Below, piece after piece: positions 10,749 to 30,653 of a stretch of DNA of 37,036 bases. A model generated the notes under the pieces. That model did no database searches and had not been told where the DNA came from. It saw only the letters and a program-made list of their open reading frames with translations. The translations under genes and the position numbers were made by a program. Numbering within the stretch: the stretch's first letter is position 1; each line of letters opens with the position of its first letter. This stretch comes from Actinomycetes bacterium (GTDB lineage: Bacteria; Actinomycetota; Acidimicrobiia; Acidimicrobiales; Bog-793). The stretch lies in NCBI GenBank assembly GCA_021798275.1, contig JAJZMK010000035.1, positions 1 through 37,036 on the forward strand, written 5' to 3'.

Positions 10749-11014
10749 GGATAAAAAAACTAGCGTATATTTTGCAGGCTTGCAGACTTTAGCGGTATTT
10801 AATTTACTTAAATTAATGTTTAATTAAGAATTCTTCAGCATCAAGTTACCCATATTCATCGGATTTGTAGTTGAATATCAAATAATGTGTGTCTAAAACA
10901 AAAGCCAATATCTGCCTGAATTCCGGTCATATAATGTAGCCAGCGTTGTTACCTAAAATACGTCCAGATGAAGATAGTGCCATCAAAAGTATGGTAGATC
11001 CATTTTTTCTTAGA

Positions 11015-11034
11015 AAATAACAATATTGTTATTT
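11015..11034. promoter_or_regulatory. Perfect 20-bp palindrome
   Basis: AAATAACAAT is followed at once by its exact complement ATTGTTATTT. The size and symmetry suit a dimeric regulator, but no regulator gene is adjacent and no T-tract suggests termination. Confidence 0.4.
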
Positions 11035-11331
11035 AATCTAACGATTTCTGATATATGGGTATCAGTTTTATTTTTTACTAAAAGTATGTAATATTATTTG
11101 TCGGGATATAGAATAATCAACGTATCTGTCTATCAAGCGGTGAAAATATATCTGCATATTAATATAAATCATATAGCTTACTTCCTGGCTTGGTAAGACT
11201 TGATATGCACATGCAACCCGGACTATCTCAAGCAGTCGGCACGTTAGCAAGAACATCGCTTTTAGGTTTTGATAATTTTTGGCCCGATTTCATGCATATC
11301 TATTTCATAACGACCACCTTTTCTAAACGCT

Positions 11332-11369
11332 AATTTTACTCAGTCAAAGAGTTTTGACTGAGTAAAATT
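11332..11369. terminator. 17-bp-stem hairpin, possible terminator
   Basis: AATTTTACTCAGTCAAA (11332-11348) pairs exactly with 11353-11369 around a GAGT loop. The stem is AT-rich, with TTTT within one arm and TTT after the other, so it could end transcripts from either side. It could equally be part of a protein-binding locus upstream of the parM-like gene. Confidence 0.4.
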
Positions 11370-11478
11370 TCTGTATCAACCATGAGCGGTATGAGCGGTA
11401 AAGCCTGTGGTGGGCGAATTGATCTTGAAGGGCAAATATAACCGTCTAAAAAACATTTACCTCATCTTCTGAGAGTAT

Positions 11479-11708
11479 GATAGCGAAGAGGCATCGATGC
11501 CCTAAAAGATGCTGTCCGAAATAGGGCTCAGACAGGTAAAAAGTGTGTGTTGTGAGTTTTTGCGACAAAAAGTCTTAATAATAGTACTTGATTTACCATA
11601 CGGAAGCCCTTGGGGGATATAGCATACAAATAAGTTATTTTATAAATATGTTTGATAAGTATCTTAAAAAATATATGGTATCTGCGAAAGGATAGCGATA
11701 TGAGGCAT
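11479..11708 (+). repeat. Split direct repeat GATAGCGA..AGGCAT flanking the parM leader
   Basis: GATAGCGA-2 nt-AGGCAT occurs at 11479-11494, and GATAGCGA-4 nt-AGGCAT at 11691-11708, where it covers the ribosome site and first codons of the parM-like gene. The first copy runs into a 12-bp palindrome (GGCATCGATGCC, 11490-11501). This could be a binding site for the downstream ParR-like protein or coincidence. Confidence 0.3.
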
Positions 11709-12656
11709 ATAGCGGTAGACGTTGGCCATGGTTGGGTAAAAGCTCTTGCTGATGACGCTACCACGGCTAAGTTCCAGGCACTGATTATTCCGGCACCAAA
11801 GTCTGTCAGTTTGGGAAGTTTCGGGACAAGTCACGTATGGCGTATCAATGATAAAGAATATTATGTGGGTGAAGCCGCATCCAACCAAGGAGCCGCTCCG
11901 CTATGGGGGCGCGATAAGGCCGACGAGGATTCATCAGCCCTTTTGGCAGTCGCTATCGCTTCTTTGAAATGTGAGGGACCCATACATCTAGCCGTGGGTC
12001 TTCCTTTGAGCTGGTATGCAACGAAAGCCAAGGATTTACGGCGTACCTTATTGGCCAGTGAATGGGACGTATTTTCTCCCGACGGTACCAATTTCAAATG
12101 GTCTATATCCGATGTTTTGGTGGCCCCTCAAGGAGTGGCTGCTTCGATACCGGCTCTTTCCAATGCCGCTGTCGGGAATTGGTTAGTGGTTGACATAGGC
12201 TGGAGAACCACGGATTATGTCATAGGTCAAATTACGGACAGTCACGAAATGGACGTAGACCCTTCGTCTGCGGGGACCATTGAGATAGGTATGAGATATT
12301 TCTACGAACGGGTAGCCAGACAATTGGAGGCTCTCTATGACGTACCTATGACTGCCGAGACGGTGGGAGACCAGACAGAAATAGTAATTAGGGGTAAAAA
12401 GATATCTCTGGTAGCCATGAGGTCCGATTGGAAAGCAATCCTGGCTTCTCAGCTGGAACGTCAAATCAGTGCCAAATTGGAAAACCGAATCAATCAGATA
12501 AGCGGTACGGTTTTGGTCGGGGGAGGCGCCGTAGAGCTGCAATCATCCTGGCCAAGCGAGGTTATTGTGCCCGATGATCCTCAAACGGCTAACGTCAGAG
12601 GTTTTTTGGCTGCATTGAACGGCTGTAAATGCGCTAGCCAGAAAGTAGGCGCTTAA
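11700..12656 (+). CDS. ParM/Alp-type actin-like ATPase
   Basis: A 318-residue actin-fold protein of the ParM/StbA and Alp group, which forms ATP- or GTP-driven filaments that push DNA copies apart. The actin signature motifs are present: phosphate-1 VDVGHGWVKA (6-15, Asp7), phosphate-2 VVDIGWRTTDYV (163-174, Asp165) and adenosine motif VLVGGGAVEL (271-280). A ParM-like PDDPQTANVRGF follows (291-302). The ATG at 11700 is chosen over a TTG at 11652 because AAAGGA (11686-11691) precedes it. The stop overlaps the start of the next gene (TAATG), so the two are translationally coupled. The Cys-x-Cys tail (309-311) is unusual. Partition is inferred from fold plus partner. A cell-shape or cytomotive role is the alternative. 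Confidence 0.85.
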   Translation: MRHIAVDVGHGWVKALADDATTAKFQALIIPAPKSVSLGSFGTSHVWRINDKEYYVGEAASNQGAAPLWGRDKADEDSSALLAVAIASLKCEGPIHLAVGLPLSWYATKAKDLRRTLLASEWDVFSPDGTNFKWSISDVLVAPQGVAASIPALSNAAVGNWLVVDIGWRTTDYVIGQITDSHEMDVDPSSAGTIEIGMRYFYERVARQLEALYDVPMTAETVGDQTEIVIRGKKISLVAMRSDWKAILASQLERQISAKLENRINQISGTVLVGGGAVELQSSWPSEVIVPDDPQTANVRGFLAALNGCKCASQKVGA

Positions 12657-13036
12657 TGCCCGATGAGCCAACGGAACAACTCGACTTACAGATAACAATA
12701 AAAAATCAAGCTCTCATTAAAAAATTAAAGTCTCTTCCGGCTCGCAGGAGAAGTCTGCTGATTTTGGAGTTGTTGGAAGAAAAACTTCTCTCCGACCCTG
12801 TCTCTGTGACACCGGCTCCAGACATCAGTAAGCTGACGGAGCGAATCGATAAAATTGAAACCACTCTCGAACAGATAGTTGCCAAGATTAGTCTGTTCGA
12901 TCAAGGTAATATCCATACGGTTTCGGCCATAGAGGAACCGGCAAATGAAGCAGACTTTGATCCACTTCATAACGACATCGTCAATACGGTAAATGCCGAG
13001 AATCTTTTTAATAAATTAAACAGAAATTTCCTTTAA
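12656..13036 (+). CDS. Small ParR-like candidate partner of the actin-like ATPase
   Basis: A 126-residue protein not recognised from its sequence alone. Residues 8-16 (LDLQITIKN) form a short beta strand, followed by two helices (17-27 and 29-44, with ARRR at the turn). That is the strand-helix-helix pattern of ribbon-helix-helix DNA-binding proteins such as ParR. Residues 57-82 form a likely coiled coil (ISKLTERIDKIETTLEQIV). The acidic, disordered tail ends in a short amphipathic segment, NAENLFNKLNRNFL. ParR proteins contact ParM through their C-terminus, so the layout fits. Its ATG shares one base with the parM-like stop, as expected for a two-gene parMR operon. The assignment rests on context and topology, not on detectable homology. 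Confidence 0.6.
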   Translation: MPDEPTEQLDLQITIKNQALIKKLKSLPARRRSLLILELLEEKLLSDPVSVTPAPDISKLTERIDKIETTLEQIVAKISLFDQGNIHTVSAIEEPANEADFDPLHNDIVNTVNAENLFNKLNRNFL

Positions 13037-13159: not shown

Positions 13160-13945
13160 TTAGCTTCCGGTTGGAAATGGATCGGAACCTAAAGTACCGA
13201 TCGGCGAGCATTCCAGGAGCTTGGCCAGTTCTTGCGGACTACTGTTTGGACTAAGCCAGTCTTGCCAGTCGCCCTTTTCGATAATGACCGGTTGTCTATG
13301 GTGAATATGAGCAATGTCAGCGTTTGCTTCTGTGGTGATGATGCTGCAGGAGTAAAGGAATTGGCCTCCTCTCTCTGGCCGAGGTTCTGCATAGTTTTTG
13401 AGTGACAATTCCGTTCTGTTGCCGGATGTATCATCCGGGATATATGTGATATCAAATATTGCCGCTAAAGCAAAGGTCATACCGTCATTTCTGCTTATCA
13501 AAAAAGCCTTTTTGGCGCGGCCCCGGCTCTTGGATCGCTTTTTGGGCGCTTTGTAGCCGAAGTCAAACATGACTTCTTCGCTTATTTCATCAATCAAGCT
13601 CGGATCCATGACGTATCCCCATTCAAAGAAACCATCCGCCGGTATCAAGGCTCTTCTTGAAAAGAAAGCGGGACGGAAAGAGGATTTGCTTTGAATGGTC
13701 TCCGACCTTGTATTAAATATCAGCCCGGAAATGTTTTTGTTCCCGATCCATGATGGCGTAAAACCCCATCGGTAATAAGACAACCTGCGATTTCCCGTTT
13801 GATCGGATGTGATGCCCAAAATAGCTGAACCGGGTGTAAAAATATCACTCGGTGGCCAGGAGGTCGATATCTTCTCTGGAACTTTTAGGGAAAACAATTC
13901 CGCCAGTTCATTTGGCTGTAGTTTTAAAGAAAATCTGCCGCACAT
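13160..13945 (-). CDS. SOS response-associated peptidase family protein (SRAP; YedK/HMCES)
   Basis: A 261-residue SRAP-domain protein. The family cross-links covalently to abasic sites in single-stranded DNA, shielding them during replication. The catalytic Cys2 is exposed after Met removal (MCGRFSL). NTRSET (78-83, Asn78), Glu108 in GFFEWG and His215 in IHHRQPVII complete the active site. A basic stretch at about 131-147 (KAPKKRSKSRGRAKKAF) extends a loop and may add DNA affinity. The ATG at 13945 is fixed by the need for Cys at position 2. It is convergent with the ParR-like gene and lies just downstream of tRNA-Leu on the same strand. Confidence 0.93.
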   Translation of the reverse strand: MCGRFSLKLQPNELAELFSLKVPEKISTSWPPSDIFTPGSAILGITSDQTGNRRLSYYRWGFTPSWIGNKNISGLIFNTRSETIQSKSSFRPAFFSRRALIPADGFFEWGYVMDPSLIDEISEEVMFDFGYKAPKKRSKSRGRAKKAFLISRNDGMTFALAAIFDITYIPDDTSGNRTELSLKNYAEPRPERGGQFLYSCSIITTEANADIAHIHHRQPVIIEKGDWQDWLSPNSSPQELAKLLECSPIGTLGSDPFPTGS

Positions 13946-14087
13946 TTGGTTCCAAATATAATTTGCTCTCTCGGGTGGTATGTGTCACGGGATCGTATTT
14001 TGCTGGTTGGTCGGCAACTACGTCACTCCGAAACGACGTTCTTTTCCGGAAATCATGATAAGTTCGTCGTTCCAGAGGTGTTCTAAG

Positions 14088-14171
14088 TGGGCGAGGGGGG
14101 ACTTGAACCCCCACATCCTTGCAGATACAGGAACCTGAATCCTGCGCGTCTACCAATTCCGCCACTCGCCC
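14088..14171 (-). tRNA. tRNA-Leu (anticodon CAG)
   Basis: The minus strand folds as a class II tRNA of 84 nt. The acceptor arms are GGGCGAG (14165-14171) and CTCGCCC (14089-14095), with discriminator A at 14088. The D-arm contains TTGGTAGACGC. The anticodon arm is CAGGA-TTCAGGT-TCCTG, with CAG at 14135-14137. A long variable arm and a T-arm GGGGGTTCAAGTCCCCC follow. CCA is not encoded. In M. tuberculosis a leucine tRNA also sits beside fhaA, so this position looks like retained synteny. Confidence 0.97.
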
Positions 14172-22199: not shown

Positions 22200-22541
22200 A
22201 TGACCGTACGGGCTAAGGCAAAAAGTAAAATAACAGAAAGAAAGATCCCGGTAGATGGAGGGGGGGTTCCCGATTCTTTTGACGGGACTCCGGCCAGAGA
22301 GCGATCACCAAGGCAGACCTCGAACAGGACGGACGGACGTTACACGGCACCGATTCCAAAGTCTGTGAAGCGTAGCCCGAGATGGTACCCCTATGTGATA
22401 CTCGGACTTCTTATCTTCGGCGTCCTGATCATTATCCTCAATTTTGTGGGGGCATTGCCATCCAGTCCCACTAACTGGTATACCTTGGTAGGACTGCTGA
22501 CGATCCTGGTTTCAGTTGTCATGGGTACAAGGTACAGGTAG
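22200..22541 (+). CDS. crgA: Cell division protein CrgA
   Basis: A 113-residue small membrane protein of the actinobacterial CrgA family, which binds FtsZ, FtsQ, FtsI and CwsA and helps assemble or restrain the divisome. The N-terminal 60 residues are basic and disordered. The family hallmark SPRWYPYVI leads into the first membrane segment (about 62-85). A PTNWY loop precedes the second (about 92-108), and the chain ends in TRYR, close to the usual MRWR ending. The N-terminal part is longer than in Streptomyces or Mycobacterium. The ATG at 22200 has no ribosome site and is divergent from the trpG/pabA gene across 51 bp. Location next to the pknB cluster supports the call. Confidence 0.88.
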   Translation: MTVRAKAKSKITERKIPVDGGGVPDSFDGTPARERSPRQTSNRTDGRYTAPIPKSVKRSPRWYPYVILGLLIFGVLIIILNFVGALPSSPTNWYTLVGLLTILVSVVMGTRYR

Positions 22542-22995
22542 GCTTTAAGCGCGTATTTAGACCGAGACAATTATCGCTTTACTTTTCTCTCTAGACGCCG
22601 CATAGAACGCGGTAGATATTTATCTTTTGTAGCTAAGGTCAGACTAATACAGGAGAACCTGACGAAGTCTCATCAGAGATCTCCGCTGCGTTGAGAGGTA
22701 TTTCTATAGCTCAAAAAAGTGCTTGATCGCATGGCAAGGGCGCTTATCAAAATAAGCCGTAATCAATTATAATTTTTTTTTTCTACAGGCCATGCGTCGT
22801 GTAGCCAACAGCAGAATGTGATATTGTGCGACATATTGAGATAGAAAATATCTGGAATTATAGTTTATTATCATCTATATGATATAAGTGTATTTATTGG
22901 GTAAATAATATGGGTTGGATACTATGATCTTGAAACAATTAAAAATACCTTGATTTTATGTAGTAAAAATTTTTGACTTGCTGGTAGTCGAGGTC

Positions 22996-23037
22996 CCGTT
23001 AGCAGCATAAACCGTTGGCAGCTAACATTTTTAGCTG
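22996..23037 (+). promoter_or_regulatory. Mutually exclusive stems upstream of metE
   Basis: CCGTTAGCAGC (22996-23006) and CCGTTGGCAGC (23012-23022) are direct repeats. GTTAGC (22998-23003) can pair with GCTAAC (23021-23026). Alternatively CAGCTAA (23019-23025) can pair with TTAGCTG (23031-23037). Overlapping alternatives of this type are typical of attenuators, but the element matches no riboswitch known to me. Confidence 0.35.
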
Positions 23038-23245
23038 TATAGCATCACAGCCTTTTGTATGGGGAAGAAATTCAGCCTCATGACAATTTGTAGCCATTCG
23101 TAATCGTCATATCGAGCGATATAAGATCTTTTGTGAAAAACTCCTTTATTCTCCATGATCCTTTATGGGTATGAAATTGACGATAGATAGGGCAGCATCT
23201 TTACATCTAAGAAATTATTTAAGAGATGAAACATAAAATATTGTG

Positions 23246-23273
23246 CTCAAGCCGTTCCCGTTTCCGGTTTGAG
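23246..23273 (+). promoter_or_regulatory. Hairpin just before the metE ribosome site
   Basis: CTCAAGCCG (23246-23254) pairs with CGGTTTGAG (23265-23273), with one G-U pair, around a 10-nt loop. It ends 9 bases before GGAGAAAG and could modulate initiation at metE. Confidence 0.45.
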
Positions 23274-23293
23274 TGAGATTTGGAGAAAGCATA

Positions 23294-25579
23294 ATGAAGC
23301 AGATATCAGTGGTGGGTTATCCCCGTGTAGGTCAAGACAGAGAATTGAAGAAGTGGACGGAAAGCTATTTTGCCGGGCAGCTAAGCCAAGAGGAACTACT
23401 TAGCTTAGCTGCTAAGTTACGTCAAATACATTGGCTTAGTCAACGCCAAAGCGGAGTGAACTACATTCCGTCCAATGATTTTTCCTTTTACGATATTTTC
23501 TTAGACACAGCCTTTTTATTAAATGTCATACCTCAACGTTACCGTTCTTTGGATTTGGGTGCCTTGGATACTTACTTCGCTATGGCGAAAGGATATCAAG
23601 GTGCAAATGGCGATGTCAAAGCCTTACCCATGAAGAAATGGTTCAACACAAATTATCACTACATAGTTCCTGAAATAGAGTCCGATGTCGAGTTTAAACT
23701 TAATGGAACCAAACCGTTTGACGAGTATAATGAAGCTTTACGCGATAACAACTTGACCAAGCCAGTGCTTATCGGGCCATTTACCTTCTTGAAGTTGTCG
23801 GAGAATCAGTCCGATAAGACACTAGGCGAACTTGCCGAGAAGCTCGTCCCTGTATATCAAGACATTTTACGTAAATTTGCCGATTTAAAAGCCGAGATAC
23901 TGCAACTGGATGAGCCTTTATTGGTAACAGATCTTACCGAGGAAGACCTCACGCTTTTTGATGAAATATATAAAAAGTTGCTGGCGGAAAAGAGTCGACC
24001 CAAGATTCTCCTACAGAGTTATTTCGGTGACTTACGAGACATCTATGAGCAATTAATATCTTACGACTTTGACGCCATAGGATTAGATTTTATTGAGGGT
24101 AAAGAAAATCTGAGACTGATTGAGCGTTACGGCTTTCCTGCCGGGAAACAATTGTTTGCCGGTGTCGTCAACGGGAAAAATATTTGGATCAATAATTACG
24201 AGGAGACGTTAAATCTAATTCACCGCTTGGCAACAGTGACCGGTTCTGCCGATATCGTTATCTCCACCTCATGTTCTCTGTTGCATGTTCCTTACACGGT
24301 CAAAAATGAAACGGGGTTGGATGAAAAATACTTGGCCCATTTGGCGTTTGCCGAGGAAAAGCTTTCAGAACTAGCCGAAATTGCCCGCCTCGTAGACAGC
24401 CGAGATTATCGCAGCGACAGCTCATATCTTGCCAACAGAGCAATCATCAGTAAAAAGAGCGGTGAAGATTTTCGCCGGGAGGATGTTCGTAGAAAAGTTG
24501 CTCTGTTGGAGGAAAAGGATTTTGTAAGAACCCCTTCTTTCGAGGAGAGACGAGAACTGCAAAAGAAGGTACTACAACTTCCACTTCTGCCGACAACGAC
24601 CATAGGATCTTTTCCTCAGACAACGGAAATAAAAAAACTCAGAAGTCTGTATAAAAAGGGTGAACTTAATACAGATGAGTACGCAAGTGCCATCAAAGAG
24701 AAAATTGCCGAAGTCGTCAAATTCCAGGAGTCGATAGGTCTGGATGTGCTGGTACACGGCGAATATGAGCGCAACGACATGGTAGAGTATTTCGGCGAAA
24801 AACTCGCCGGTTTTGTTTTTACCAAGAAAGCTTGGGTGCAGTCATACGGGACGCGTTGCGTCAAGCCTCCCATTATTTTTGGTGATGTCAAGCGGCTTGA
24901 ACCGATGACTGTCGATCTTATCTTATATGCGCAGAGCTTAACTACCAAGCCCCTAAAAGGGATGTTGACTGGTCCCATCACGATTCTGAATTGGTCTTTC
25001 GGACGTGAAGACCTATCCGGGAAAGAAGTTGCTTACCAGATAGCGTTGGCAATTAAAGAGGAGGTGGAGGATCTGGAAAAAGCGGGTATAAAAATTATAC
25101 AAATTGACGAGGCGGCTCTCAGAGAAAAATTGCCGCTTCGCAAGTCAGACTGGCACGTTGAGTATTTAGATTGGGCTATACGAGCTTTTCGGCTTGTCCA
25201 CTCCGACTTGAAGCCCGAAACGCAGGTTCACACCCATATGTGCTACAGCGAATTCGAAGATATTATCAAAGATATCGAAGAGATGGATGCCGACGTCATT
25301 ACATTTGAAGCAGCCCGTTCAGAGCTGTCCCTGATAGATGTCTTAAGTGCCAATAATTTCAAAACGGAGGTAGGCCCGGGCGTCTATGATGTCCATTCGC
25401 CGCGGGTACCTTCCGTGGAGGAACTGGAAACGATAATTCGAAAGATAATCGATCGGCTTGAGTCTGACAGGGTGTGGATTAACCCCGATTGTGGTTTGAA
25501 AACACGCGGGGAAAAAGAGACCACGGAAAGTCTTAAAAACATGACAGAAGCAGTTCGCCTGATTCGTCAACATTCATAA
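23294..25579 (+). CDS. metE: Cobalamin-independent methionine synthase
   Basis: A 761-residue cytoplasmic enzyme that moves a methyl group from 5-methyltetrahydropteroyl-triglutamate to homocysteine, the last step of methionine synthesis. It has the expected two TIM-barrel halves (about 1-380 and 420-761). The zinc and homocysteine ligands His648, Cys650 (HMCYSEF), Glu672 (FEAARS) and Cys733 (NPDCGLKTR) keep the same spacing as in E. coli MetE (2, 22 and 61 residues). The ATG at 23294 is preferred over a GTG at 23273 because GGAGAAAG (23282-23289) is correctly placed for it. It has a long leader with possible RNA switches and no neighbouring methionine genes. Confidence 0.96.
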   Translation: MKQISVVGYPRVGQDRELKKWTESYFAGQLSQEELLSLAAKLRQIHWLSQRQSGVNYIPSNDFSFYDIFLDTAFLLNVIPQRYRSLDLGALDTYFAMAKGYQGANGDVKALPMKKWFNTNYHYIVPEIESDVEFKLNGTKPFDEYNEALRDNNLTKPVLIGPFTFLKLSENQSDKTLGELAEKLVPVYQDILRKFADLKAEILQLDEPLLVTDLTEEDLTLFDEIYKKLLAEKSRPKILLQSYFGDLRDIYEQLISYDFDAIGLDFIEGKENLRLIERYGFPAGKQLFAGVVNGKNIWINNYEETLNLIHRLATVTGSADIVISTSCSLLHVPYTVKNETGLDEKYLAHLAFAEEKLSELAEIARLVDSRDYRSDSSYLANRAIISKKSGEDFRREDVRRKVALLEEKDFVRTPSFEERRELQKKVLQLPLLPTTTIGSFPQTTEIKKLRSLYKKGELNTDEYASAIKEKIAEVVKFQESIGLDVLVHGEYERNDMVEYFGEKLAGFVFTKKAWVQSYGTRCVKPPIIFGDVKRLEPMTVDLILYAQSLTTKPLKGMLTGPITILNWSFGREDLSGKEVAYQIALAIKEEVEDLEKAGIKIIQIDEAALREKLPLRKSDWHVEYLDWAIRAFRLVHSDLKPETQVHTHMCYSEFEDIIKDIEEMDADVITFEAARSELSLIDVLSANNFKTEVGPGVYDVHSPRVPSVEELETIIRKIIDRLESDRVWINPDCGLKTRGEKETTESLKNMTEAVRLIRQHS

Positions 25580-25940
25580 TATCAAACTATAGTCTACTCG
25601 TATGTCGAAGATAGTTTTTGCTAATTATGTATAAATAAATTTTCGACAGAGTAATATTTTTGTATACAGTCGCTATCGGTTATGAAGATGATTGACACTA
25701 AGCTGTAGCTGAGTAGCAGTCAAAGTCATCGCTGTGGTCAGAAAGAATTCATTCCTACGAGTTTATCTTTCCACCGTTGTGTTCACCTCTGAGGCCACGA
25801 GCACCGTATGGGGTAAAGTGGACGCCATCTAAAACGAGGTAGTATGTGCGACGTGTAACTACAATTTTTGATGCCTCTCAAGAACAGGCGCGTACTTTAG
25901 CTTGTTCTAGACCACGAGTCAAGGTAGATCAAGTAGGGTA
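25580..25940. other. Intergenic region with possible gene remnants
   Basis: This 361-bp stretch begins with a weak AT-rich hairpin (AAACTAT 25584-25590 and ATAGTTT 25611-25617, then TT) that may terminate metE. From about 25750 to 25930 several short open stretches read like protein. A plus-strand frame ends ...IFDASQEQARTLACSRP..., and a minus-strand one contains YYLVLDGVHF. Neither has a start and both are broken by stops. They may be decayed genes or chance. Confidence 0.35.
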
Positions 25941-26336
25941 TTATTTTGGATCTAGATGAGCTGATATCCACTCAGCCAACTCATCTGTAGTTATGTCATC
26001 AGATGCAACTCGAACCATAATTGCAACCACATCATCACTCGTGGCAGTTTGCCAGCTGTAGTTATTGCGGGATACAAATTCTCTGAAACACGCATAAGCT
26101 GTTCTCTTATTTCCATCTGGAAGAGGATGGTTTTTAATCAGGTGCTTAACAAGAATAGCTGCTTTGCGGGGAAACTCTTCGTAAAACTCTATGCCAGCAA
26201 ATGATGCGCTTGGAGCACACAGAGCTGACTCGGCAAGATCAACACCAACACCTTTGGCTAGAACTTTTGCCTCAATTCCAAGAACCTTTTCTGCGATAAT
26301 TAAAAAGTCGGCTAGATCAAGATAATGAGTCGTCAC
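25941..26336 (-). CDS. Doc/Fic-family toxin
   Basis: A 131-residue toxin of the Doc branch of the Fic fold. The active loop HPLPDGNKRTAY (70-81) carries the catalytic His70 and the phosphate-binding GNKR. Doc proteins of phage P1 type phosphorylate EF-Tu and stop translation; other Fic proteins AMPylate. Which activity applies cannot be read, but the short length and Asp74 favour Doc. The GTG start at 26336 overlaps the antitoxin stop (GTGA), so toxin synthesis depends on antitoxin translation. The pair sits in AT-rich DNA between metE and an unlinked gene, consistent with lateral gain. Confidence 0.92.
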   Translation of the reverse strand: MTTHYLDLADFLIIAEKVLGIEAKVLAKGVGVDLAESALCAPSASFAGIEFYEEFPRKAAILVKHLIKNHPLPDGNKRTAYACFREFVSRNNYSWQTATSDDVVAIMVRVASDDITTDELAEWISAHLDPK

Positions 26337-26554
26337 ATTTTTGCAAGTTTTTCAAAAACATCACGTTCAGATTCAAACAGATCAGTTAGGCGCTTTTGAA
26401 AATCTGGATCAGCCCTTCGAGTGTCGATGTATTCATTTATCGCAACTCGAACCGCTTCGGATACTGACAGGTTATCCGCACGCGCAACTAACTCAAGTGA
26501 TTCAGCAGTTGTTTCCTGCATGCGAATAGTTGTCGTACGAGTGTGTGTATTCAT
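26333..26554 (-). CDS. Antitoxin of the Doc-type module, ribbon-helix-helix
   Basis: A 73-residue protein. The first 40 residues (TTTIRMQETTAESLELVARADNLS, then SEAVRVAINEYID) form an Arc/CopG-type ribbon-helix-helix that would bind the operon's own promoter. The charged C-terminus (DFQKRLTDLFESERDVFEKLAKM) would bind and block the toxin. It is upstream of the toxin, as is usual. The ATG at 26554 has no ribosome site. A TATACT box lies 6 bases upstream, so translation is probably leaderless. Confidence 0.9.
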   Translation of the reverse strand: MNTHTRTTTIRMQETTAESLELVARADNLSVSEAVRVAINEYIDTRRADPDFQKRLTDLFESERDVFEKLAKM

Positions 26555-26560
26555 AATATC

Positions 26561-26566
26561 AGTATA
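26561..26566 (-). promoter_or_regulatory. -10 box of the toxin-antitoxin operon
   Basis: TATACT on the minus strand ends 6 bases before the antitoxin ATG, which places the start of transcription at or next to the A of ATG (leaderless). The repeated TGATAT flanking it may be the autoregulatory operator. No -35 box is clear. Confidence 0.45.
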
Positions 26567-26814
26567 TCACACCTCTTTAGGTTTAATGCTTACGGAAAAG
26601 AATCAATCATCTTAAAAGTATCAATTGTATCCTGCTGGAATTAATTCTACAAAATCGCCATTTTGGGAATCAAAACAGTGGGCGAAGTCGCCTTTGTGAT
26701 CGGAAAGTATTTATAAGTGCGAATTTAAGCGATACCATTGATAAGTTATGCGTTGCCAGTTTAGTTTAAACAAGTCGCATGTTTAGGTGGCATTAATGTT
26801 CAGTTCAGTGTAAA

Positions 26815-26830
26815 TTTGAACTAGTTCAAA
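26815..26830. promoter_or_regulatory. Perfect 16-bp palindrome, possible operator
   Basis: TTTGAACTAGTTCAAA is its own complement and lies 6 bp upstream of a -35 box. The position suits an activator or repressor of the DinB-like gene. Confidence 0.5.
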
Positions 26831-26835
26831 ACCTA

Positions 26836-26865
26836 TTGATAAAAAGATGTAATAAAGTATATATT
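26836..26865 (+). promoter_or_regulatory. Candidate promoter of the DinB-like gene
   Basis: TTGATA (26836-26841) and TATATT (26860-26865) are 18 bp apart, each one base off consensus. Transcription from about 26872 would give a leader of about 135 nt. Confidence 0.5.
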
Positions 26866-27006
26866 ACGATTAGTACGTGGTTGGAAATTGCATCACAGGT
26901 CATGTGTCTGAGTAGTGCGCTCGGTTGAGACATAACCAGGCGTTCTCACTTACCTTGACCAACTAGGTAGGTATTTTATCAGCCTGATGGAACGGGAAGA
27001 GTGGTT

Positions 27007-27603
27007 ATGACTGATTTACAATCTTTGGTGGCGCTCACCTATGATGGTCTTGTAGACTTGCTTGTTGGCTTACCCGAAGAGACTTGGGATGCACCGTCGC
27101 TTTGCGACAATTGGCAGGTGCGTCATGTCGTCGCTCATATGATAATGCCAGTCCGCTTCACTCCCGAGCAATTTGCTGTCGAGATGGCAGCAGTAAAGGA
27201 CTTCAACGTCTTCTCCAACACTGTAGCCGCTCGCGATGCCTGCTTACCGATTATAGAACTCCTAGATGCCCTAGGTTCAAAGACGCTTCATGCCTGGCAG
27301 CCAGGAATTGGTGGCGCTATTGGTGCTCTTAGTCATGCAGTCATTCACTCGCTTGACATCACTCTTGCCCTTGACTGCCCCTCTACCGCTCCCATTGAGG
27401 CTGTGATTTCCGTCCTCGAATATCTCGTCGGGGCCAACGGCACTATTTTCGGCGTTGAGCTTGACGGAGTTCAATTGAGAGCCCTCGACATTGACTGGAC
27501 TTGGGGAACAGGTCGCAGCGTCAATGCCACTAGCAACGAACTCGTGGCTCTTTTGAGCGGTCGTACGTTGCCCAATGGTCATGCCTTGGAACGAGTCGGT
27601 TAG
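27007..27603 (+). CDS. DinB/maleylpyruvate isomerase-type (mycothiol-dependent) family protein
   Basis: A 198-residue protein of the actinobacterial family often annotated as maleylpyruvate isomerase N-terminal or TIGR03083. These are four-helix DinB-like proteins, several of which use mycothiol. The hallmark N-terminal pattern is present: LPEETWDAPSLCDNWQVRHVVAHM (about 23-46). The His of VVAHM and the two of LSHAVIHSLD (about 110-119) would form the metal site. The enzymatic reaction is unknown. The ATG at 27007 is chosen over a GTG at 27001 because GGGAAGAG lies just upstream. Its codons are visibly richer in G and C than the flanking DNA, so recent transfer is possible. It is convergent with purL over a 611-bp gap. 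Confidence 0.8.
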   Translation: MTDLQSLVALTYDGLVDLLVGLPEETWDAPSLCDNWQVRHVVAHMIMPVRFTPEQFAVEMAAVKDFNVFSNTVAARDACLPIIELLDALGSKTLHAWQPGIGGAIGALSHAVIHSLDITLALDCPSTAPIEAVISVLEYLVGANGTIFGVELDGVQLRALDIDWTWGTGRSVNATSNELVALLSGRTLPNGHALERVG

Positions 27604-28214
27604 CAACAAGATCGTGACGCCAACAGCTATCAATAATTTTACTCAGCTTGTCGTTTTAGGAGACCTCACTCTTATGGGTAAAATTTATACCGCTAATGCT
27701 CATTTTGTCAGGACTGTAGCATAACTAACCAACCCTGCTGCTAAAGAGTCAGCTCCATCTTCTGTAAATAGCAAGGTAGCAAGTTCTGATGGAATGTAGG
27801 TGTTTTAATCTTCATTTTCTATTCTAAAAGAACGAATACTTTTATAGTTATTTCTTCAATAACAGGTAAGTAAAAGACTGAAATTGAATAACGTATGTAA
27901 TCTCGCGATATTGTAAGATAATCCACGCGGGTCATATTTATCATGAGCTTTATTAGTAAATACTGCCCGGTGATTCAACAGCAGTGTTTAATACTGTTAT
28001 TATAACCTGATTTAGATCAGTGGCAAGTCTAATGTGCCGCTATTTTTCATTTGTGCACTTTGTATAGGCAATAAAATATGTTTTAAATTACAACACGATA
28101 TGATCTACATCGCGTAAAAGTCTATAAATAAAATACAAATAGTTATTTTTATTCAAAAATGTAGTCTATTTATTTTCAGAAGTTAAATATTACAAGGCTT
28201 AACGTTGGCAAATT
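27604..28214. other. Intergenic region between the DinB-like gene and purL
   Basis: About 610 bp, strongly AT-rich after 27800. A frame open from about 27602 to 27723 (SNKIVTPTAINNF... to ...AHFVRTVA) looks protein-like and lies one base out of frame with the preceding gene; it may be a remnant. A small inverted repeat, CTGAT-TTAG-ATCAG, lies at 28007-28020. No clear terminator of purL is seen. Confidence 0.4.
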
Positions 28215-30653
28215 CTATTCATTATCCGTTATTTCTAGATGTGCTGGCAGATAATTAGTGTAACTGCTTTTGATATCTGCTAAATCTATGTCGACCATAT
28301 TTTCTATGATCAACCTATCACCATCTGCAGAACCCAGTATTTTATGAGCTATCCCACTGCCATCGGCCAACTCACCGATTAGCGCCGGATACTTGGTGGC
28401 CACGACAACGCGAGACGGTGATTCTGAAAAGAGTTCTGCTTCGCTTTGAATGCCCGTTATGAGAGCCCCACATTGTGATTTGATCACCATCTCGCATAAC
28501 GTTGTAGCCAGACCGCCGGCAGATACGTCATGTATATGGCCGACAAGGTTGTCTCCGGTGTCAAAGTTTTTAGGTTTGCTAAGTTCCTTTCCCTGTATGT
28601 CTTCACTGATCTGTTTTCCTACCAGATCGGCGATAAAAGAGATAAACTTTTTGTGATAGCCAAGATCCAATTTGGGAAGGCGGCACTCATGTCGTGTATC
28701 CCAGTCGTGTTTATGTAGCTCAGCCCAGGATGAACCGCATAAAGTTTCCTCAGTCGTGCCTAATAAAACCAAACTTTCACCGGGGTCTAATCCTATTGCC
28801 GGTGGTTTGGTAGTTATATGTTCGATGAGTCCAACTACGGCTACGACCGGTGTCGGCAAGATATCTTTTCCTTCACTGGCGTTATAGAGGGAGACGTTTC
28901 CCCCTACCACCGGTATTTCCAATTCCGTGCAGGCTTTTGCCATTCCGTCTATGGATTCGGAAAGTTGCCACATCACTTCACCGTGTTCGGGGTTTCCGAA
29001 ATTCAAGCAATTGACAAGTCCTATAGGCTTTGCTCCGGTGCAGGCCACATTCAAAGCAGATTCAGCGACCGTCAAAGCCGTACCCGCTTTCGGGTCTATC
29101 GCACAGTAGTTGGGGTTGGCATCGGTCGATAGTGATACCGCTTTACCGGTGAACTCAATATCGGGAGCTGATAATTTCAAGACGGCAGCATCTGCTTCAC
29201 CGGGAGCACAGATGGTATTGGTAAATAACTGATAGTCATACTGTTCATAAATAAAGGAAGGATCAAGTAAGAGACTCAAGATATCTTCGGCTATCTCATC
29301 TCCGGAGCGCAAACCATTTTTCTCGCTGCCTTCAAAATGTGATACCGGTGTCGTTTCGGCGTCAGTGCTTACAGGGGTGATAAAGTCACTCAGTCTGGCC
29401 ATGGCTTTAGGTGGGGTAATCGGTCGGTGATATTTCGGTGCTTCATCGGCCAAAGTGGCAGCCGGCATATCTGCCAATACCGTGCCCCCGGGTTCTGACA
29501 AAATGCGCAGCCGGCTGGGACAGTCTGGGCTATCAGGGACAATATGTCCTATGATGCTTGAGTTAATTTCAAATTTATCACACAGAGACTTTACTTCGTC
29601 AAAGTCTTCAGGTTTCACTATGGCCAGCATGCGTTCCTGACTCTCGCTTGTCATAATTTCAGGCGGGGTCATACCATCTTCTCTAAGAGGTATGCAAGAG
29701 AGGTAAACGTCCATGGCCACCCGGCCCCTGGCAGCTAATTCGCTGGTAGCACAAGCCAATCCGGCGCCACCTAAGTCTTGGATGGCGACTGCCAAGTGGG
29801 CATCAAGCAACGCTAAAGTGGCTTCTATCAAACGCTTTTCTTCGTAAGGGTCCCCAACTTGTACACTCGGCCTTTTTGACGAGGTCTCATCATGGGCCGG
29901 TGTTTGTGAGTTGGTGACAGCCTTGGGATTTTCCTGTCCAAATCCCGCCGAAGCTAGGATACTGACCCCGCCTATACCGTCGCGACCGGTAGCTGAGCCT
30001 AGGAGTACCACCAGATTTCCCTCACCGGAAGCGCGTCCAAGCACAAGTCTATCTTTTGGTAAAATACCTAAACAAAATACATTGACCAAAGGATTTTGGT
30101 TATAGCAGGTATCAAAAGTAATACTGCCACCGACAGTCGGCACACCGACTGAGTTACCGTAACCGGAAATTCCCCGTACAATTCCGTCCAGGAGATAGGC
30201 GTTATGGGCGTTTTCTACCGGCCCGGTAAAGAGGGGATCCATCAAGGCAATAGGCCGAGCACCCATCGTAAATATGTCTCTGATGATACCGCCGGCTCCG
30301 GTAGCGGCCCCCTGATACGGTTCTATGGCGGAAGGATGGTTGTGGCTTTCTATCCGTAAAGCAATGGCAAGGTTGTCTCCCACGTCGATAACCCCCGCAT
30401 TTTCTCCGGGTCCCACAAGCACCAAAGGAGATTCGGAAGGCAGTCTACCCAAGTGAACGCGCGATGATTTATAGGAACAGTGCTCGCTCCACATTACCGA
30501 ATACATAGCCAATTCCAAGTCGTTTGGCTCTCTGGTAAGTTTCGTTTTGATTAAATCAAATTCTTCATCCGTCAAACCGAGTAACAAATGGGCGTTTTCC
30601 ATAAATACCAGTCTTTCAATAATTATATCTATAGTGCAATGACTTTTTGCCAT
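28215..30653 (-). CDS. purL: Phosphoribosylformylglycinamidine synthase subunit PurL
   Basis: An 812-residue ATP-dependent synthetase subunit that converts FGAR to FGAM, the fourth step of purine synthesis, using ammonia from PurQ with PurS as bridge. It is the small PurL type that needs PurS and PurQ, both encoded just upstream. Visible motifs are SEHCSYKSS (His58), GPGENAGV, IESHNHPS (101-108) and GAATGAGGIIRDIFTMGA (115-132), with duplicated AIRS-type halves. The start is uncertain. ATG 30653 gives an extra 17 residues compared with ATG 30602 (MENAHLLLGL), which fits the family start better, and neither has a strong ribosome site. It is the last gene of the cluster. Confidence 0.95.
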   Translation of the reverse strand: MAKSHCTIDIIIERLVFMENAHLLLGLTDEEFDLIKTKLTREPNDLELAMYSVMWSEHCSYKSSRVHLGRLPSESPLVLVGPGENAGVIDVGDNLAIALRIESHNHPSAIEPYQGAATGAGGIIRDIFTMGARPIALMDPLFTGPVENAHNAYLLDGIVRGISGYGNSVGVPTVGGSITFDTCYNQNPLVNVFCLGILPKDRLVLGRASGEGNLVVLLGSATGRDGIGGVSILASAGFGQENPKAVTNSQTPAHDETSSKRPSVQVGDPYEEKRLIEATLALLDAHLAVAIQDLGGAGLACATSELAARGRVAMDVYLSCIPLREDGMTPPEIMTSESQERMLAIVKPEDFDEVKSLCDKFEINSSIIGHIVPDSPDCPSRLRILSEPGGTVLADMPAATLADEAPKYHRPITPPKAMARLSDFITPVSTDAETTPVSHFEGSEKNGLRSGDEIAEDILSLLLDPSFIYEQYDYQLFTNTICAPGEADAAVLKLSAPDIEFTGKAVSLSTDANPNYCAIDPKAGTALTVAESALNVACTGAKPIGLVNCLNFGNPEHGEVMWQLSESIDGMAKACTELEIPVVGGNVSLYNASEGKDILPTPVVAVVGLIEHITTKPPAIGLDPGESLVLLGTTEETLCGSSWAELHKHDWDTRHECRLPKLDLGYHKKFISFIADLVGKQISEDIQGKELSKPKNFDTGDNLVGHIHDVSAGGLATTLCEMVIKSQCGALITGIQSEAELFSESPSRVVVATKYPALIGELADGSGIAHKILGSADGDRLIIENMVDIDLADIKSSYTNYLPAHLEITDNE

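Follow-up and report, generated by a model that had tools for sequence, protein, structure and literature searches.

The window, a 37-kb stretch that is one entire contig of a 2.09-Mb MAG, carries two overlapping genes whose products we read as a ParM-type actin and a small ParR-like adaptor (Table 1). The TAATG stop/start overlap puts the small gene directly beside parM in all three species of the genus examined, i.e., the window species and two sister species (isolates WH2.bin4 and LSA5.bin10, here L006 and L007). Both reading frames at 11700–13036, and their overlap, are as a preliminary description of this DNA had given them.

Table 1 Features of the parMR locus and its surroundings, in window coordinates
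Feature	Position	Strand	Evidence or remark
AT-rich divergent intergenic region, expected place of parC	10749..11699	.	No excess of direct repeats
GGGGGATATAGCATAC, block shared by three species upstream of parM	11612..11627	+	Candidate promoter/operator
parM-like gene, 318-aa actin-fold ATPase	11700..12656 (stop included)	+	PF17989, PF21522, phrog_691; solved-structure relatives
Phosphate-1 motif AVDVGHGWVKA (Asp7, Lys14)	11712..11744	+	Mostly invariant in the genus and Sulfobacillus plasmid ParM
Phosphate-2 motif DIGWRTTD (Asp165–Asp172)	12192..12215	+	D165, G167, R169, T170, T171 and D172 invariant
Adenosine motif VLVGGGAVEL	12510..12539	+	G274–G276 and L280 invariant
TAATG stop/start overlap of parM and parR	12654..12658	+	Sequence; kept in sister species L006 and L007
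parR-like gene, 126-aa adaptor protein	12656..13036	+	Similar to plasmid proteins in ParR position
ParR residues 9–46, putative ribbon-helix-helix (strand, helix 18–25, helix 29–46)	12680..12793	+	Sulfobacillus and Burkholderia matches; modelled helices
ParR residues 57–84, predicted coiled-coil helix, fast-evolving linker	12824..12907	+	Model; regional identities
ParR residues 102–126, conserved C-terminal tail, proposed ParM-binding peptide	12959..13033	+	84–96% identity vs 16–67% elsewhere
tRNA-Leu(CAG)	14087..14171	-	3′ end faces parMR; synteny break in related genera (context only)

Assignment of the larger protein to the actin family is far beyond chance, given its matches to PF17989 (ALP_N, E = 8e-20), PF21522 (MreB-like_C, E = 8e-18) and, over residues 4–304, phrog_691 “partition protein” (E = 6e-31). 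It is covered over its full length by a ParM-type profile and carries the actin-fold ATPase motifs proposed for it earlier, with Asp7, Asp165 and the adenosine motif falling in alignment columns shared with a 35% identical homologue, the ParM of a Sulfobacillus plasmid. The best database match was indeed ParM/StbA of Sulfobacillus thermotolerans plasmids (33–35% identity over 95%), and the nearest solved structures in sequence and profile searches were pCBH ParM, Ta0583, and Dh-cParM1, with pCBH ParM outscoring Ta0583 in the profile search. A closed β-barrel subdomain sets ParM apart from other actins (PMC12270681); in an AlphaFold2 model of the window protein built from a three-sequence alignment, this barrel was not seen at the low confidence reached (mean pLDDT 37).

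The small protein matched no Pfam family above chance level, in line with the preliminary description, which had recognized none; pSK41 ParR, an established case, likewise has no significant Pfam match. We built a CopG-type ribbon-helix-helix (RHH) profile from 30 loci in related genomes; against it, the genus protein alone was not significant (20/100 shuffles scored as well), and the protein downstream of the Sulfobacillus plasmid parM beat all shuffles (0/100). The genus protein aligns to the latter without gaps over 36 residues spanning the strand and both helices (1/2000 shuffles), and each of the three genus proteins is significantly similar (p < 0.001) to the product of the ORF that follows parM on a Burkholderia plasmid. 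The Sulfobacillus and Burkholderia proteins in turn both match pSK41 ParR (p = 0.002 and 0.009), to which the direct similarity of the genus protein is not significant, while a joint profile of eight ParR-position proteins matches an RHH_1-type set better than any shuffle (0/200). Linked in this way to pSK41 ParR through products of ORFs that follow plasmid parM, the small protein is best read, on such indirect evidence, as a ParR-type RHH protein. An AlphaFold2 model (three-sequence alignment, mean pLDDT 57) has helices at residues 18–25, 29–46, 57–84, 104–110, and 114–125, in agreement with the strand-helix-helix, coiled coil, and amphipathic C-terminus described earlier, with the N-terminal strand absent from this monomer model; Foldseek with the same low-confidence model gave no usable match. 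The RHH fold, on which the preliminary description had staked its reading, therefore gains support from similarity to plasmid ParR-position proteins, and not from the protein’s own profile score or a confident model. Separately, the short hypothetical ORFs that immediately follow ParM/StbA or PRTRC_D genes on plasmids (L099, 2500–2835; L097, 2620–2952; L101, 2190–2543) appear to encode ParR-type RHH proteins that annotation missed, each ending in a hydrophobic C-terminal tail.

Next, we considered the chromosomal setting of the pair. It is syntenic in 3/3 species of the genus, from three separate MAG assemblies and on a contig of 198.7 kb in one of them. In the sister species, an M23-like peptidase gene precedes the pair and tRNA-Leu(CAG)-FhaA-FhaB-PstP-PbpA-PknB follows it; aconitase, SOD, and AKR genes lie to the left of this segment. 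This shared synteny with aconitase, SOD, tRNA-Leu, and FhaA-PknB in three species argues against carriage on a plasmid or mobile element. It also bears out two earlier statements: that the pair is a chromosomal one of ParM/ParR type, and that its neighbors (SRAP, tRNA-Leu(CAG), and an FHA/FHA/PP2C/PBP/PknB block) are ordinary chromosomal genes. The SRAP gene itself (13163–13945, minus strand), between parR and tRNA-Leu, occurs in the window species only and is absent from L006 and L007.

The distribution of the pair is narrow. It was found in none of 95 other genomes of the same family and order, and a five-sequence profile (E ≤ 1e-10) had no match outside the three genus genomes in a phylum sample of 396 genomes. 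A phrog_691 search of 395 class members gave strong full-length matches in this genus only; from their lengths and the profile segment that they cover, the other matches in the class look DnaK/MreB/FtsA-like, and the one better match (G122) is an Hsp70-like protein of 749 aa. The small protein was found only in the three genus genomes, and parM and parR occur together or not at all among the sampled genomes; a widespread actin-like protein lacking the small partner, which would have counted against the earlier reading, was not seen. A viral contig scan returned no relative and a phage collection one weak partial match only, while tblastn of plasmids gave ParM matches of at most 33% identity and no ParR match. 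Six related genera keep tRNA-Leu(CAG)-FhaA; the genus’s genes beyond the tRNA 3′ end are absent there, and a UvrD-like helicase, an S9 peptidase, and a methyltransferase gene take this place where it could be identified. The tRNA 3′ end may thus be a plastic breakpoint. Together with the plasmid location of the closest relatives, the synteny break makes it plausible that a plasmid or mobile element brought parMR in long ago.

Plasmid parC usually consists of direct repeats near the operon (PMC9426499). Pairs of near-identical 12-mers were counted and compared with simulations that preserved dinucleotide composition; this test sees direct repeats only, and a single-palindrome or far-off parC would escape it. 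No excess was found upstream of the three chromosomal operons (254, 177, and 265 of 300 simulations reached the observed count), nor downstream of these loci by the same test. Excess repeats were recovered upstream of the operon in pSK41 (3/300 simulations), in the gap of the Sulfobacillus plasmid pL15 (3/300 and 1/200), and for the Burkholderia (1/200), Cupriavidus (0/200), and Thermovibrio (0/200) relatives; pY0017, the other Sulfobacillus plasmid, carries pL15's thrice-repeated 11-mer too but gives a weaker signal by 12-mer count (34/200), and no excess was seen in the Acidovorax gap, which spans only 67 bp. Overall, repeats indicative of an iterated parC beside the operon were detected at 0/3 chromosomal loci vs five plasmid relatives, so that an adjacent iterated parC is apparently lacking from the chromosome. 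The block conserved upstream of parM ends in GTATAGCATAC (ATATAGCATAC in the window), ~75–90 bp before the parM start. We rejected this palindrome as a dispersed centromere: the exact 11-mer GTATAGCATAC has one copy per genome, which lies at the parMR locus in 2/3 genomes and on another contig in the window’s genome. A perfect 17-bp inverted repeat with a 4-nt loop is also found upstream of parM (11332–11369); being absent from both sister species, it was discarded as a conserved parC.

We then examined selection across the locus. ParM was the most conserved syntenic protein compared (93% identity vs 57–89% for the others), and its dN between the window and sister species (0.047–0.048, Nei–Gojobori) was the lowest of eight genes. 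The pS of parM was ~0.8, as high as in neighbor genes, with synonymous sites saturated; a low dN at this level of pS indicates constraint rather than recent transfer or conversion. ParM is under strong vertical purifying selection, and is not a decaying remnant. ParR was the least conserved protein, at 42–49% identity to the window species, with marked differences between regions: 46–67% in the RHH, 16–59% in the linker and coiled coil, and 84–96% in the last 25 residues. In studied ParRs, ParM takes up the conserved C-terminal tail in a hydrophobic pocket (review PMC5016525), and by analogy the tail would play the same part here. All three species also have ParB beside dnaA as well as two MreB-family genes, which rules out that parMR replaces either ParABS or MreB.

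Chromosomal cParMR systems were described in 2025 by Ali et al. in J Biol Chem (Dh-cParM1/R1 of Desulfitobacterium hafniense and Cb-cParCMR of Clostridium botulinum; PMC12270681). Two cParMs, including Desulfitobacterium cParM1, were shown to polymerize, Desulfitobacterium cParM1 ranks with the best-conserved proteins of its genus, and the authors left the role open (PMC12270681). As in these precedents, the genus studied here has a chromosomal ParM-type actin with an adjacent small RHH-type ParR, synteny within the genus, a highly conserved ParM, and ParABS alongside. It differs in phylum, in a ParM distant from Dh-cParM1 (E = 4e-11), and in that Cb-cparC has palindromic repeats bound by ParR, whereas no repeat array was found at the window locus. 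With ParM and ParR on the chromosome and conserved within the genus, the operon is an actinomycete case of the 2025 cParMR kind, apparently without an adjacent iterated parC; the earlier suggestion of an undescribed system hence does not hold for the kind as such (PMC12270681).

The Sulfobacillus thermotolerans plasmids pL15 and pY0017 share the best-matching ParM/StbA and a downstream 93-aa RHH-like protein of similar strand-helix-helix, but their 199-bp intergenic gap holds a thrice-repeated TGTGACGGCAC and their ParR is shorter, without the coiled coil. PRTRC system protein D of a Burkholderia ambifaria plasmid is a ParM-type actin (27% identity) whose downstream small protein is the best ParR match (p < 0.001), in a plasmid-borne system with repeats upstream of parM; the window ParM scored 48.9 bits against PRTRC_D (TIGR03739), far below the cut-off of 214.8, and no PRTRC companion genes were noted among the annotated neighbors. 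The type II partition system pSK41 ParMRC has the same parM-parR order and an RHH adaptor with a C-terminal tail, but an iterated parC upstream. AlpC/AlpA of the Corynebacterium glutamicum prophage CGP3 (PMC4446434), likened here by description and not by sequence, also pairs an actinobacterial actin-like protein with a co-transcribed DNA-binding adaptor; it is prophage-encoded, however, and serves phage DNA replication, and the adaptor binds repeats upstream of its operon (PMC4446434).

Given the two genes, their relatives, chromosomal synteny, selection pattern, lack of an adjacent repeat array, and co-occurrence with ParB and MreB, we favor, with some confidence, a working and vertically inherited chromosomal operon (cParMR), most likely serving a host function added to ParABS and not plasmid partitioning. 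For filament formation, tail binding, DNA binding, and cellular role, we infer the following scheme. ParM would be an ATP/GTP-dependent actin forming dynamic filaments, and ParR a dimeric RHH adaptor whose long coiled-coil linker presents the conserved C-terminal peptide, which would bind ParM at the ends of filaments. The probable RHH target is a non-iterated site, at least in the operon's own promoter region; such binding could repress the operon and/or link the filament to one or a few sites on the chromosome. No parC was found at the parMR locus to support DNA coupling there. The host role might be nucleoid or DNA positioning, or a ParR-regulated filament: a fixed ParM and ParR tail, a drifting RHH, and missing repeats favor a host role over plasmid partition, and leave these two options undivided. 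More tentatively, a chromosomal ParMR without an iterated centromere may have become a strongly selected host filament system of a single actinomycete genus, its array lost after the move to the chromosome and its ParR mainly regulating the filament and/or binding single dispersed chromosomal sites.

A rather unlikely variant is a domesticated cytoskeletal filament, with ParM as a cell-structure actin, ParR as a purely tail-mediated filament regulator, and DNA coupling lost. Absence at 3/3 loci of the repeat arrays seen in plasmid relatives, divergence of the RHH next to a nearly fixed tail and ParM, and the action of Cb-cParR as a depolymerization factor for aged filaments (PMC12270681) would all fit; however, a strand-helix-helix still kept at 46–67% identity makes retained DNA binding likely, and the genus already has two MreB-family proteins. 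Plasmid-borne closest relatives and the lack of a local parC would also be expected if the chromosomal operon acted in trans to partition a low-copy plasmid, or an integrated element, whose parC lay elsewhere, yet the operon occupies the same place in all three species and is extremely conserved, and we know of no plasmid from the genus (see tblastn results above), so that we deem such a helper role improbable.

Two further readings concern the nature of the proteins and whether they function at all. Ta0583 is among the closest solved relatives of ParM and PF21522 is described as “archaeal MreB-like C-terminal”, which might point to a Ta0583-like or MreB-like shape actin with a small protein unrelated to ParR. 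This is very improbable: pCBH ParM scores above Ta0583, pSK41 ParM is itself structurally closest to Ta0583 (PMC4911067) and the two likenesses are therefore not exclusive, and the small protein matches plasmid ParR-position proteins. A decaying, functionless remnant of an integrated plasmid or prophage would suit a locus adjoining the 3′ end of tRNA-Leu, a usual integration site at which family synteny breaks. Intact frames in three species at saturated synonymous sites, the lowest dN of eight genes, and the lack of any integrase, rep, transfer, or other plasmid or phage gene noted among annotated neighbors make it barely credible. Of the integrated plasmid remnant suggested in the preliminary description, the ancient plasmid or mobile origin remains plausible, while a dead remnant is not supported, given the strongest purifying selection of the genes tested and no other plasmid or phage gene noted among the annotated neighbors.

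Whether chromosomal ParM moves chromosomes, organizes the cell, or helps plasmids was a question raised in 2025 for a few, mostly Firmicutes, systems. The actinomycete case has a distinct signature, i.e., a nearly fixed ParM and ParR tail, a drifting RHH, no repeat array, and ParABS and MreB both present; the contrast of fixed ParM and tail with drifting RHH and absent repeats is what it adds to the 2025 cParMR work, and the locus could serve to test DNA segregation against a repurposed filament. Such pairs can be missed because the small partner has no Pfam match, as for pSK41 ParR.

Elsewhere in the window, a Fic/Doc-like ORF (HPLPDGNKRTAY motif, 131 aa) overlaps a 73-aa RHH antitoxin-like ORF (25941–26554, minus strand), the latter passing the PF01402 cut-off at 26423–26533; the two are likely a toxin-antitoxin pair. 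A very similar RHH is encoded on a different contig of this genome (L048). L006 lacks the surrounding ~5.7 kb (22541–28215), which holds a metE-like gene and a small ORF besides the toxin-antitoxin pair, at the matching place; there, the purL-like gene comes almost directly after crgA.
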